Assembly (NCBI GenBank): GCA_001899315.1
Contig: MOYA01000006.1
Span: 1 to 64,000, forward strand
Reading direction: 5' to 3'
Source: Candidatus Obscuribacter phosphatis
GTDB taxonomy: Bacteria; Cyanobacteriota; Vampirovibrionia; Obscuribacterales; Obscuribacteraceae
Length of the DNA: 64,000 bases
Of this stretch, positions 24,209-28,683 are shown in pieces; position 1 is the first letter of the stretch; each line of letters begins with the position of its first letter. A program made the position numbers and the translations under genes. Under the pieces are notes generated by a model, which had not been told where the DNA came from, did no database searches, and worked only from the letters and a program-made list of their open reading frames with translations.

Positions 24209-25144
24209 ATGACATTGAATCCATTCGAATTACAAGGCCCAGCTTATCTGGGATTTTATCTGATAGCTTGCACCCTGACGGGAATAGTCGCATATTTTTT
24301 GAGACTGCACATCTTAGGCAAGCATTACGCTAGCATTTATCAGACCACAAATGAGTCTGAGTCTATTGCTAGAGAACTGGACCCCTATGAGGCAGCCTAT
24401 CTGCAAGGTGGGGCTGACCGAGTGCTTCTAACTGCCTGCGCTAACTTGGCGAGACACGGCATAGTGCAGATAGATACCGGTTCGAGCAAACTTTATGACA
24501 CTCTAGGAAGTTCACCGGACGCCGACAAGATTAAGGCCTCGCTGCATAAGGTTGAGGAAGAGATCTTTAGCCTATGCCGGGTGAAAGGCTTGGCTGTTGA
24601 GCAAGCCAAGTCGGCATTGAGACCTTATATAACAAACATCGAATCATCGCTTAGAGAGAAAGGTCTTTTAGCCACCGAAGATGAGCTATCGAGAGCTCGC
24701 ATACTGCCCTTCCTGCTCATGTTCTCAGTGGCGGCTCTGCTGGCTCTGCCCAAGTTTATGGTTGGTATGGAATTGCATAAGCCTATCCTCCTGCTCCTAG
24801 TGTTCTCCTCATTCATGTGCTTTGCTTCCACCTTGTTCCTAAAGATGAACCGGGTGACCAACGGCAAAGGTGAGTTGGTGGCTGAAACAATGAAAGAGAC
24901 GGGTTCTGCCTTGAAGCTCACCTTCACCAGCAGACCATCCAGCTTATCGATTACCGATACCGCCTTTGCCTATGCCTTGTTTGGCACGGTGCTTATGGCA
25001 AGCGACCCCTATTCCCTAGCTAGTAAGCTCTTTGTCAAACCCACAAGCGGCTGTGGTAGCGGTTGTGGCAGCAGCGGCAGCGGTTGCGGCAGTGGTTGCG
25101 GCGGCGGTGGCTGCGGCGGAGGCTGTGGTGGTTGCGGTGGCTAG
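24209..25144 (+). CDS. TIGR04222-type membrane protein with Gly/Cys-rich tail
   Basis: 311 residues: a membrane segment at ~12-32, a cytoplasmic-looking helical domain with ELDPYEAAYLQGGADR and ACANLARHGIVQ, two adjacent membrane segments at ~167-210, and a possible fourth near 245-262. The last ~30 residues are only Gly, Ser and Cys with seven cysteines spaced by 3-6 residues. This matches the TIGR04222 family, known to carry such tails. The stop overlaps the DUF692 start by 8 bp. Known MNIO enzymes of the DUF692 family modify cysteines in small peptides, so the tail may be the partner's substrate; that is inference. Function of the family is not established. Confidence 0.8.
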   Translation: MTLNPFELQGPAYLGFYLIACTLTGIVAYFLRLHILGKHYASIYQTTNESESIARELDPYEAAYLQGGADRVLLTACANLARHGIVQIDTGSSKLYDTLGSSPDADKIKASLHKVEEEIFSLCRVKGLAVEQAKSALRPYITNIESSLREKGLLATEDELSRARILPFLLMFSVAALLALPKFMVGMELHKPILLLLVFSSFMCFASTLFLKMNRVTNGKGELVAETMKETGSALKLTFTSRPSSLSITDTAFAYALFGTVLMASDPYSLASKLFVKPTSGCGSGCGSSGSGCGSGCGGGGCGGGCGGCGG

Positions 25145-26387
25145 TTTTGAAACGAAATTGGGGCTGGGCTACAGAAGCGAACTGGCTCTATTTGTTGAAC
25201 GTCGCCAAGATTTGGGTTTTGTAGAGATACTTGCTGAAGATTTCCCCCAGCCATCTCATATTCCTGCCGCGCTGAAGCGTCTGTGTCGACAGGGCTTGAT
25301 GGTGATTCCTCACAGCACCACCCTGTCTCTCGGTTCGGTGCAGCCGCCTAATGCGGCCCAGTTGAAACATCTAGACGCCCTGGCGCGTTATTTTGATGCC
25401 CCCTTTGTCAGTGACCACATTGCCTTTGTGCGCGGTGGCGGGCTAGAGACAGGTCATTTACTGCCTGTTCAGCGTAACCATAAAATGCTGGCCTTGCTCA
25501 AGAGAAATATTGAACATGCTAGAAACGGGCTTTCGGTGCCTCTTGTGCTCGAGAATATTGCCACGACTTTTGATTGGTCTGAGAGGCAGAATACAATGAC
25601 CGAGCCTGAGTTTTTGAGGCAGGTACTTGAATCTACTGATAGTGGACTGCTCTTGGATGTTAGTAATTTATTTGCTAATTCTTTCAATCATCATTTTTCA
25701 GAAGATGACTATCTGCGGGCTTTGCCGCTAGATAGGCTGCGTTATGTGCATGTGGCCGGCGGTACTTTCAAGCAAGGTCTCTATCACGACACTCACTGTC
25801 ATCCGCTCAAGGAAGAGTCTTTACGGGTGCTAAAGAAGCTGGCGGCGCTCGTCCCCATACCTATGGTAATGCTCGAACGTGATGATAATTTTGCCTCAGA
25901 TATAGAGTTGTCCCTCGAACTAGACCAATTGCGCCAGTCTTGTAGAGTTCCCGCTAGCTTTGCTGCAGCAGATGCCAGGCAAATAGAAATTGGCCTTGAA
26001 CCGATAGCAATTGCTAAGCCAGATCTTTCTGCCCTTGCCCAAGAGCAAGATGCTCTTGTACGAGCGCTGCTTGCCGATTGCAGCCACTTGCCCAGCTCAC
26101 TCGGTCTTGATCAAGAAAGAATCGGCCAGGCGTTTAAGGCTTTGCGCCGCAAACGTATTCGTACAATCAAGAGAGCTTATCCTGATATTCTTACTATCTT
26201 TCCAGAGGAAGAGAAGCTAAATCAACTGCTGGAGCGTTATTTTGATAATTGTCCTTCAGTATCAGAGCTTGGTCCCTATGACGATGCTATGAAGTTCATG
26301 AAGTATCTCAAAAAATCGGGCGAATTGCCCGCGCCGAAGCTGGCCGGTGCTCTCTCTCAGGCATTGAAGTCTTTCTTGTCGAAGTGA
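25137..26387 (+). CDS. DUF692 multinuclear non-heme iron oxidative (MNIO) enzyme with C-terminal extension
   Basis: 416 residues from GTG 25137; the track to the left is the Gly/Cys coding sequence read in another frame and is not part of it. A TIM-barrel DUF692 protein: candidate metal ligands are H59 (IPHS), D93/H94 (SDHIAF), E139 (LENI), D174/N177 (LLLDVSNL), H205 (YVHVAGG), H217-D218-H220 (YHDTHCH) and E247 (MLERD). All are in the order seen in MbnB, TglH and bufferin enzymes. After residue ~290 there is a ~120-residue helical extension (ALRRKRIRTIKRAYPDI...) not needed for the barrel. Translational overlap with the Cys-tail protein implies a joint function. Confidence 0.88.
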   Translation: MASFETKLGLGYRSELALFVERRQDLGFVEILAEDFPQPSHIPAALKRLCRQGLMVIPHSTTLSLGSVQPPNAAQLKHLDALARYFDAPFVSDHIAFVRGGGLETGHLLPVQRNHKMLALLKRNIEHARNGLSVPLVLENIATTFDWSERQNTMTEPEFLRQVLESTDSGLLLDVSNLFANSFNHHFSEDDYLRALPLDRLRYVHVAGGTFKQGLYHDTHCHPLKEESLRVLKKLAALVPIPMVMLERDDNFASDIELSLELDQLRQSCRVPASFAAADARQIEIGLEPIAIAKPDLSALAQEQDALVRALLADCSHLPSSLGLDQERIGQAFKALRRKRIRTIKRAYPDILTIFPEEEKLNQLLERYFDNCPSVSELGPYDDAMKFMKYLKKSGELPAPKLAGALSQALKSFLSK

Positions 26388-26452: not shown

Positions 26453-27658
26453 GTGGTGACCCAGACTCGGCAGAACTTGCATACGCCCCACCTAGCAGTT
26501 AAAGCTGCCATTTACTTGTTTATGGTTCCGTTTCTTGCCGGTGCTTTATTTCTTGACGATGTCTGCCAGCCGGCTCAGGCAAGAAAGATTAGAGAGCGTG
26601 GCAAAAAGCGCAGAAAAGCAGAAAATAACAAAGAAGAAACAAAAGTAGTCTTGAGAACGATTCAGTTTCCCGACAAATATTCGGTGGGTAAGCTTTTCAA
26701 GATTGAAACTTCGGCGCTGGGTATTTATAGTCGTGGCGCTGCCTTGGGCGAAGCTAAAGGCAAAGTAAGCGTGAAGGCAGAAGACAAAGTTTTGCTGGAT
26801 GTCGAGTACGAAGGCTTCAAGAATCTCAAGTTTTTGCAAGGTCTTAAGGCTGACGATCTCTACGGTCTTTCTCTGGCTAACGATGGCCGGGGTTTTCCAG
26901 TAGACGACGGAGAGCTTGTTCTCATCAAGCATTTGTCTGGATTGCGTGTGCTTGAGTTGGAGGACAATGATATCACTGATGATGGCGTCAATAATCTGTC
27001 CTCTTTCGGTAATCTAGAAGTTCTCAATCTCGGTCACACTATGATCAGCTCAGCCAGTCTGCCGGTGATTGCGCGTTTGACCAAACTGACTCAGCTGGAA
27101 TTGGATGGCATTTCACTTGGTGAGAATGCCATTAAAGATTTGAGTAAGCTCACCGGTCTGAAAGCGCTCTATATGAGAAGTTGCAATTTGAAGTCGACCT
27201 CAACTAAACATCTAGCGGCTATGAAAAGCTTGGCTGTTTTGCGTTTGGCCGGTAACAAAATTGGTGATGAAGGTGTCAAAAATATGCCGGTTTTGGCAGA
27301 GTTGAAAGAGCTCAATCTCAATGAAACCGGCGTTACTGATCAGTCTCTTGAAAAAATTGCTTCCTATCAGTCTTTGGCTATTCTCACTTTGCGCGGCAAT
27401 TCATTTTCGTTTTCGTCTGCTTCTAGCATCAAGAGCCTGAGCCGTCACAAGAAGCTCTTTTATCTAGATATTAGTGGTCCTAAATTGACCGACGATAAAA
27501 TAGCTTTCGGCAAAGAGATGCCGGCTCTCAAGACTCTGCGTCTATCTGCCGAGCCGTCCAGTCGGGCGGCAATTAGTCGCGCATTGCCCGGCGTCAAGCT
27601 GGTTTTTGATGAGCCAAAGTTGCCGCTTGATCTTTTTGACCCATTGAAAGGTCGCTAG
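26453..27658 (+). CDS. Exported leucine-rich-repeat protein
   Basis: 401 residues with a signal peptide (AIYLFMVPFLAGALFLDDV, cleavage near CQPAQA). Residues ~150-370 form about nine leucine-rich repeats of the LxxLxLxxNxI type (LRVLELEDNDITDDGVNNL, LEVLNLGHTMI, LKALYMRSCNL, LAVLRLAGNKIGDEGVKNM, LKELNLNETGVTD). These repeats make a curved protein-binding surface in the envelope. GTG 26453 is chosen because it keeps a full signal peptide; GTG 26456 is equally possible and no SD is obvious. It lies 66 bp after the MNIO gene and 21 bp before the metal exporter, so it may belong to one operon. Confidence 0.82.
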   Translation: MVTQTRQNLHTPHLAVKAAIYLFMVPFLAGALFLDDVCQPAQARKIRERGKKRRKAENNKEETKVVLRTIQFPDKYSVGKLFKIETSALGIYSRGAALGEAKGKVSVKAEDKVLLDVEYEGFKNLKFLQGLKADDLYGLSLANDGRGFPVDDGELVLIKHLSGLRVLELEDNDITDDGVNNLSSFGNLEVLNLGHTMISSASLPVIARLTKLTQLELDGISLGENAIKDLSKLTGLKALYMRSCNLKSTSTKHLAAMKSLAVLRLAGNKIGDEGVKNMPVLAELKELNLNETGVTDQSLEKIASYQSLAILTLRGNSFSFSSASSIKSLSRHKKLFYLDISGPKLTDDKIAFGKEMPALKTLRLSAEPSSRAAISRALPGVKLVFDEPKLPLDLFDPLKGR

Positions 27659-27678: not shown

Positions 27679-28683
27679 ATGGAAGGTCCAAATAGCGTGA
27701 AGAGTTGTCACAGTCATAGTTTTGATAGCGGTAATGAAAGCGGTGAAAAGGCTACTGGTCTTGCTGTTCTCATTACTGCCGCCATGATGGTGGTTGAAAT
27801 TGTCTGTGGTTGGCTCTTCAATTCGATGGCTCTTTTGGCTGACGGTTGGCATATGAGTTCTCATGCCTTGGCTCTTGGGCTTTCGCTTTTGGCTTACCAG
27901 GTTGCAAGAAAGCTCTCTCGCGATGAGCGGTTTACTTTTGGAACTTGGAAAATTGAAGTTTTGGGCGGCTATTCCAGCGCTCTAATGCTTGTCGGCGTCG
28001 CTTTGCTGATGCTGTATCAATCGGTGGAGCATTTATTTAGACCCAGTCCGATTCAGTTTGACCAAGCGATTATAGTGGCTGCAATCGGACTGGCAGTTAA
28101 TCTGGTCTGCGCCTTTCTTTTGCAGGGTGGGCATTCTCATGACGGTCATTCACACTCTCATGAGAGCCATTCACATTCACATGACAGCCACGCGCACTCT
28201 CATGAAACCCATTCGCGCCCTCATGGTCACGACCATCATCGCGATATCAATCTGCATTCAGCTTATTTGCATGTTTTAGCCGATGCTGCTACTTCTTTGT
28301 TGGCGATAGTGGCGCTTTTGGGTGGTAAGTTTTTTGCCCTCAACTGCTTAGACCCGATCATGGGCATAGTGGGCGCCTTTCTTGTGCTTGGTTGGGCTAG
28401 GGGGCTTATCAAAGAAAGCGCACTGGTGCTGCTTGATGCCCAAATGAATGCACCGGTGGTCAGTGAAGTGCGGGAAGTTATTGCCTGCTTGCCCAGTGGC
28501 GCTGAGCTAACCGATCTGCATGTTTGGCGGGTCGGGCGCGGTAAGTTTGCTTGTATTGTTTCGATTTCGGTGCAAGAAGATTTGAGTCCTGAACTGGTCA
28601 AAGAAAAGTTGGCAATTCATGAAGAGCTTGTGCACATTACTGTGGAAGTGAACCGTACTGTATCGCAACCGTCTTTAGTCTGA
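27679..28683 (+). CDS. Cation diffusion facilitator, DmeF-like Co/Ni/Zn exporter
   Basis: 334-residue CDF transporter with six membrane helices. Helix 2 carries LADGWHMSSHALALG and helix 5 HVLADAATS, the His/Asp transport site in the form typical of DmeF. WKIEVLGGYSSALML is also family-typical. Between helices 4 and 5 is a long His-rich loop (residues ~150-190) for metal binding. The C-terminal domain (AELTDLHVWRVG) is the cytoplasmic dimer domain. It exports divalent cations using the proton gradient. Position after the MNIO/LRR genes may link metal handling with the iron-dependent enzyme. The 3' end overlaps the convergent vWA gene by 9 bp. Confidence 0.93.
   Translation: MEGPNSVKSCHSHSFDSGNESGEKATGLAVLITAAMMVVEIVCGWLFNSMALLADGWHMSSHALALGLSLLAYQVARKLSRDERFTFGTWKIEVLGGYSSALMLVGVALLMLYQSVEHLFRPSPIQFDQAIIVAAIGLAVNLVCAFLLQGGHSHDGHSHSHESHSHSHDSHAHSHETHSRPHGHDHHRDINLHSAYLHVLADAATSLLAIVALLGGKFFALNCLDPIMGIVGAFLVLGWARGLIKESALVLLDAQMNAPVVSEVREVIACLPSGAELTDLHVWRVGRGKFACIVSISVQEDLSPELVKEKLAIHEELVHITVEVNRTVSQPSLV

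Follow-up and report, generated by a model that had tools for sequence, protein, structure and literature searches.

A two-gene cassette in Candidatus Obscuribacter phosphatis joins a TIGR04222 membrane protein, which ends in a Gly/Ser/Cys tail, to an MNIO (DUF692) enzyme that has merged with its otherwise separate partner protein. On balance, we think it probable that this MNIO-partner polypeptide oxidizes the cysteines of the tail on the inner side of the membrane. What the sequences of the cassette show directly is its gene order, the overlap of its two genes, conservation of the tail, fusion of the partner, and intact MNIO residues. Its features and the two genes that follow are listed here by position in the window, which is the whole 64,000-nucleotide stretch of DNA analyzed.

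24209..25144, + strand: TIGR04222 membrane protein, 311 aa, ATG start (NCBIfam TIGR04222, AlphaFold2, hydropathy)
25046..25141, + strand: Gly/Ser/Cys tail of 32 residues, 7 of them Cys, with CGGCGG at its end; the substrate that we propose (sequence)
25137..25144, + strand: 8-bp overlap; the GTG start of the MNIO falls within the final codons of the tail gene (sequence)
25137..25937, + strand: MNIO (DUF692, PF05114) catalytic barrel (Pfam; alignment of 30; solved relatives 3bww, TglH 8hci, and MbnB 7dz9)
25971..26387, + strand: fused partner domain (PME-type 2/DUF2063-like) that most relatives encode as a gene of its own (homology to downstream ORFs)
26453-27658, same direction as the cassette: LRR protein, exported-looking
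27679-28683, same direction as the cassette: DmeF Co/Ni exporter (NF033827, 365 bits; cut-off 250)

The tail protein and the overlapping MNIO gene

The product of 24209-25144 belongs to the TIGR04222 family (92.9 bits against a cut-off of 43), and no further Pfam or NCBIfam family was above cut-off. In the AlphaFold2 model, read together with hydropathy, a transmembrane (TM) helix at residues 11-35 is followed by a winged-helix-like domain (about 40-156), two further TM helices (157-189 and 194-211), a short helix (248-258), and a disordered tail; mean pLDDT is 77 overall and about 35 in the tail. Foldseek gave no significant match for the model. A tail made only of Gly, Ser, and Cys is unique to this protein among the 222 window ORFs of at least 60 aa, and such tails occur in 43 of 1315 ORFs of at least 90 aa at homologous loci, all 43 of them TIGR04222 proteins. 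Compared with the nearest relative (86% identity), nine of the last 34 codons differ, seven synonymously and two non-synonymously, and every Cys is kept; Cys is also present in the tails of all 17 members from the window's family, each of which ends in CGG. The tail is therefore not an accident of composition because synonymous positions vary around retained Cys codons, and Cys recurs in every member.

The MNIO gene runs on the + strand from a GTG at 25137, eight bases before the end of the tail gene is reached, to 26387, with GGAGG located 14 bases upstream of the start. Residues 8-267 match PF05114 (223 bits, cut-off 25), and approximately 149 C-terminal residues lie beyond the match. The preliminary description of this DNA had reported a TIGR04222-like membrane protein with a Gly/Ser/Cys tail of seven Cys, an 8-bp overlap with a DUF692 gene, and an extra C-terminal domain of approximately 120 residues in the enzyme, and all of these features were borne out. 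Ten residues (H59, H94, E139, N140, D174, N177, H205, D218, H220, and E247) are identical in the alignment of 30 of 30 MNIO homologues, and the His, Asp, and Glu residues among them fall in motifs that line up with solved MNIOs (MbnB and 3bww); the ten invariant columns are likely to represent the iron-site residues. Against the BufB-like equivalog, the enzyme scores 162 bits, below the cut-off of 310. Two further MNIO genes are present in the window genome (G000:C1:697876 and G000:C3:158916); one adjoins a DUF2063-type gene in a bufferin-like order, and one is divergent and was matched by the profile only at residues 38-238.

The extra C-terminal domain of the MNIO

When the window enzyme was used as a query, the matches comprised MNIOs plus small ORFs that, in relatives, stand alone immediately after short MNIOs, and these ORFs align to residues about 284-404 of the window enzyme. 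A profile of the partner domain found it at all 17 family loci, fused to the MNIO in five (the window, L060, L063, L066, and L068) and encoded by a separate downstream gene in the other 12. The sequence comparison thus gives good support to the view that the extra domain is the otherwise separate partner fused to the MNIO, as the preliminary description had suggested when it proposed that this domain could replace the usual partner. Across all MNIO loci, 26 of 30 have the domain, including those of Singulisphaera, cyanobacteria, and several planctomycetes. In planctomycetes such as Singulisphaera, a partner gene sits beside MNIO-TIGR04222 (L153:1486-1992, L095:6585-7133, and L097:6735-7238), so the three-part cassette spans phyla. 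One 9-row group of the MNIO tree contains all five fused enzymes, which need two changes of state, and a single fusion event possibly lies behind all five. The reading of the long MNIO frame of L058 as a reverse-order fusion was rejected because the extension at its N terminus is repetitive and the partner is encoded separately downstream.

Matches to DUF2063 (PF09836) were weak and were found in 4 of 11 members of the partner family (best E 0.008), and the window domain alone had no Pfam match. Profile comparison with hhalign aligned the partner over 73 columns with a divergent DUF2063-type group that follows the bufferin-type MNIOs of relatives (90% probability, E 1.6e-6; unrelated profiles gave 0.04-0.15%), and a smaller classical DUF2063 group of relatives gave a short, weak match over 31 columns. 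The AlphaFold2 model of the partner domain is all-helical with a confident core. Foldseek with this model gave no significant match, the MNIO partner MbnC (7dz9_C) being at rank 4 with an E of 5.8, and a PDB sequence search with the partner profile returned repeat artefacts only. In one cyanobacterial partner (L104:7365-7910), the N terminus resembles an NHLP-type RiPP leader (NF038399, E 2e-5, below cut-off).

Conservation of the pairing and relation to known systems

Among 50 genomes of the window's family, its own genome included, TIGR04222 was above cut-off in 17, and an MNIO gene is next on the same strand in every one. We tabulated 47 TIGR04222 proteins from the family, other Vampirovibrionia, cyanobacteria, and planctomycetes. 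MNIO adjoins 30 of them (the 17 family loci and 13 from cyanobacteria and planctomycetes), with tight gene overlap at many loci, and all 30 have at least two Cys within their last 45 residues. The planctomycete G484 has one TIGR04222 copy with a Cys tail beside an MNIO and a second copy with neither MNIO nor tail. A wider contig search with an alignment of closer sequences gave 10 loci, and plasmids gave one TIGR04222 match. The family is most common in Actinomycetota.

The preliminary description held the pairing to be a plausible undescribed system, but TIGR04222 Cys tails beside MNIO genes were already predicted in 2025 (Antoine et al. 2025, PMC12452194). In that study, TIGR04222 accounts for 40% of the Cys-containing, signal-peptide-less proteins encoded before MNIO genes, the Ser/Gly tails carry Cys and are predicted to be periplasmic, and the MNIOs of these clusters come with short PME-type 2 partners. 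MNIO is also absent beside some TIGR04222 genes and from a third of TIGR04222-bearing genomes (PMC12452194). The window shares with these clusters the TIGR04222 protein, the Ser/Gly/Cys tail, the adjacent MNIO, the PME-type 2 partner, and the lack of a signal peptide; their partner is separate and short, whereas that of the window is fused to the MNIO. Neither a fused MNIO and partner nor a GRDP-like domain appears in the main text of PMC12452194. New here are the fusion of the partner to the MNIO, the alternation of MNIO and GRDP-like domains on one kind of tail, and the evidence for a cytosolic tail.

Resemblance to other characterized systems is partial. The bufferins, oxazolins, and captophorins (Buf/Hvf/Fon) have in common with the window an enzyme of the MNIO superfamily, a Cys-rich substrate, and a DUF2063-like partner. 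Their partner is of the DUF2063-RRE type, whereas no recognizable RRE was found in the window partner domain, and the substrate candidate of the window differs from theirs in being a multi-pass membrane protein; at 311 aa, it is not a small precursor, and it has neither a Sec signal peptide nor the Buf signature. MbnB-MbnC and TglH-TglI are alike in pairing an MNIO with a helper that acts on a Cys peptide, but their substrate is a free peptide, the two proteins are separate polypeptides, and sequence similarity is low.

Proposed action of the MNIO-partner polypeptide

In the mechanism that we propose, the TIGR04222 protein would insert so that its winged-helix domain and its C-terminal tail are both on the cytosolic side, and the translationally coupled MNIO would bind the nascent or finished Gly/Cys tail, with the fused DUF2063-like domain helping tail binding as a docking aid. 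The MNIO would oxidize the tail cysteines, probably to thiooxazole-type or related groups, and this would give a modified thiol arm, anchored in the membrane, for metal binding or sensing. The cytosolic position of the tail, its role as substrate, the chemistry, and the part played by a metal are what we infer, and the type of product and binding of copper or another metal by the tail are suggested by analogy with characterized MNIOs. Most known MNIO substrates are small peptides, and the MNIO field is active; a one-polypeptide MNIO-partner with a membrane-anchored tail would be a compact two-gene system for asking whether proteins, and not peptides alone, can be MNIO substrates. Cys is modified by published MNIOs, which form, for example, copper-binding 5-thiooxazoles (PMC12668002). 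The papers examined report no modification of a TIGR04222 protein.

Cys tails without an MNIO and the GRDP-like domain

The preliminary description had also expected tail cysteines and the DUF692 gene to co-occur. This held for the 17 family genomes and the 30 MNIO-linked loci and failed in at least 13 genomes (cyanobacteria, G066, G377, and two planctomycetes) that have a Cys-tailed TIGR04222 protein and no detectable MNIO. One of the cyanobacteria, G106, is a single contig with an estimated completeness of 100% and gave no MNIO match. Retention of Cys tails in these genomes indicates that the tail can have a role without an MNIO.

Fourteen TIGR04222 proteins without an adjacent MNIO carry a GRDP-like domain of approximately 140 residues, either as an N-terminal fusion or in a neighboring gene (L071 and L146). 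Among the genomes of these 14, G582 (L144) has an MNIO elsewhere and G464 (L145) has a distant MNIO only. Because Cys tails also occur where no MNIO is detectable, usually with the GRDP-like domain in its place, the tail cysteines are not MNIO-dependent across the family. The domain is a distant relative of PF07173 (GRDP-like/DUF1399; one member matches with an E of 5e-4), has the invariant residues D66, W69, H70, H72, C84, H93, H94, and E103 (D..WHxH..C..HH..E), and gave one weak match in a PDB sequence search with its profile (E 0.007). None of the 47 tabulated TIGR04222 proteins has both an MNIO and a GRDP-like domain at its locus, and three have neither: L110 and L148, which are tailed, and L152, which has no Cys tail and whose same-genome paralogue L151 has both tail and MNIO. 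In the TIGR04222 tree, the MNIO and GRDP-like states need five changes, of which well-supported branches force only one. Mutual exclusion of the two per genome was rejected; several relatives, including G002, G013, G036, and G042, have both, at different loci.

PF07173 was too insensitive as a whole-genome probe, and our own GRDP-like profile was used instead to search 292 genomes of the phylum. The GRDP-like domain was also linked to Gly/Cys tails on proteins other than TIGR04222, in the same protein or a neighboring one (L163, L166, L169-L173, L186, L189, and L193-L211). Proteins at L163 and L169-L172 combine a GRDP-like domain with two TM helices and carry a Gly/Cys tail at their own C terminus; that at L166 has the domain, two TM helices, and a short Cys-containing end. 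A Rhizobium gallicum plasmid protein with a GRDP-like domain has the same two-TM-plus-tail layout. Two tail-less GRDP-like copies in cyanobacteria lie 1-20 bp downstream of Ser/Thr protein kinase genes whose products end in CGGGC (L173:3-1466 and L186:1-1470). In the window's family, standalone GRDP-like genes are often downstream of genes for signal-peptide, one-TM, Ser/Gly/Cys-tail proteins, such as those at L193:2010-3143, L196:1979-3085, L198:2035-3045, and L201:2068-2982; Pfam found no family above cut-off in these four. In the regions fetched, a Ser/Gly/Cys tail is encoded in a gene adjoining 14 of 32 GRDP-like copies, and the rest are without a tail; three of the 32 are duplicates, and some are cut by contig ends. 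The link of the domain to Gly/Cys tails is frequent, not universal.

In plants, AtGRDP2 has a C-terminal Gly-rich domain with interspersed Cys (PMC4299439). Plant GRDP (DUF1399) proteins thus resemble the tail proteins in their C terminus and have a distantly similar GRDP-like domain, but they have no MNIO and bear on the tail proteins that lack an MNIO rather than on the window pair. As a tentative idea, which we hold to be possible rather than probable, the Gly/Cys tail may be a portable cytosolic module set on at least four unrelated scaffolds and served by either an MNIO with its DUF2063-like partner or a GRDP/DUF1399-like domain. The latter would possibly be a second tail-modifying or tail-loading metalloprotein, with plant GRDPs as its eukaryotic relatives. 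Two unrelated factors alternating on the same kind of tail is the more novel part of this work and a lead on what the widespread GRDP/DUF1399 domain may act on.

Another reading of the window pair, which we consider rather unlikely, is that the Gly/Cys tail stays unmodified and serves as a metal- or redox-binding arm, and that the MNIO acts on another substrate or tunes the tail conditionally. The MNIO-free genomes agree with it, as do the Cys tails of unrelated scaffolds, among them kinases and membrane proteins with a signal peptide, but C-terminal Cys are found in 30 of 30 MNIO-linked TIGR04222 proteins, the genes overlap tightly in many, and, in a non-exhaustive look at the family loci, we noticed no further small Cys-rich ORF that adjoins the genes or separates them.

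Topology of the tail

The N terminus of the window protein is without K/R, and the domain after the first TM helix begins with K/R, which is a positive-inside pattern. Its model has three TM helices and then only an 11-residue fourth helix before the tail. By hydropathy, roughly half of the homologues have a fourth segment above a weak TM threshold; a fourth TM helix called from hydropathy alone was left as a possibility, with the AlphaFold2 model showing only those 11 helical residues. In the proteins with a GRDP-like domain and two TM helices, the loop between the helices is mostly K/R-free and K/R follow the second helix in some, a pattern that would make domain and tail cytosolic. In most of the signal-peptide scaffolds, K/R-rich sequence follows the single TM helix, which likewise would put their tails in the cytosol. 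Taken together, the positive-inside pattern, a fourth helix too short to span the membrane, and the tails of the signal-peptide scaffolds favor a cytosolic TIGR04222 tail within reach of the cytosolic MNIO. This differs from the periplasmic prediction of Antoine et al. 2025.

That published prediction, and the homologues with a fourth segment above threshold, would suit a bufferin-like course in which the MNIO modifies the tail before insertion and the tail is then exposed outside and buffers copper. We judge this improbable; the short fourth helix and the charge pattern of the window protein count against it, and comparable tails carried by type I membrane proteins and a kinase would lie in the cytosol.

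Neighboring genes

The LRR and DmeF genes have the same direction as the cassette, with short gaps, and DmeF is a true equivalog, but the suggestion that the tail/MNIO pair is part of a metal-export operon with them is hardly credible because they adjoin the cassette only in the window genome and its closest relative, G002. Neither the other same-genus genome nor any further relative examined has them next to the cassette; the link to the pair made in the preliminary description is thus not upheld, and the two genes are not part of the module and carry no weight for its function. In the other relatives, their place is taken by sensor-kinase-like, transporter-like, or unrelated genes, named from sequence appearance only. 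In several relatives (L062, L063, L064, L065, and L067), a gene for a sensor-kinase-like membrane protein is found downstream of the cassette, and most of these loci also have a response-regulator-like gene close by; the sensor-kinase-like gene is possibly a regulator.
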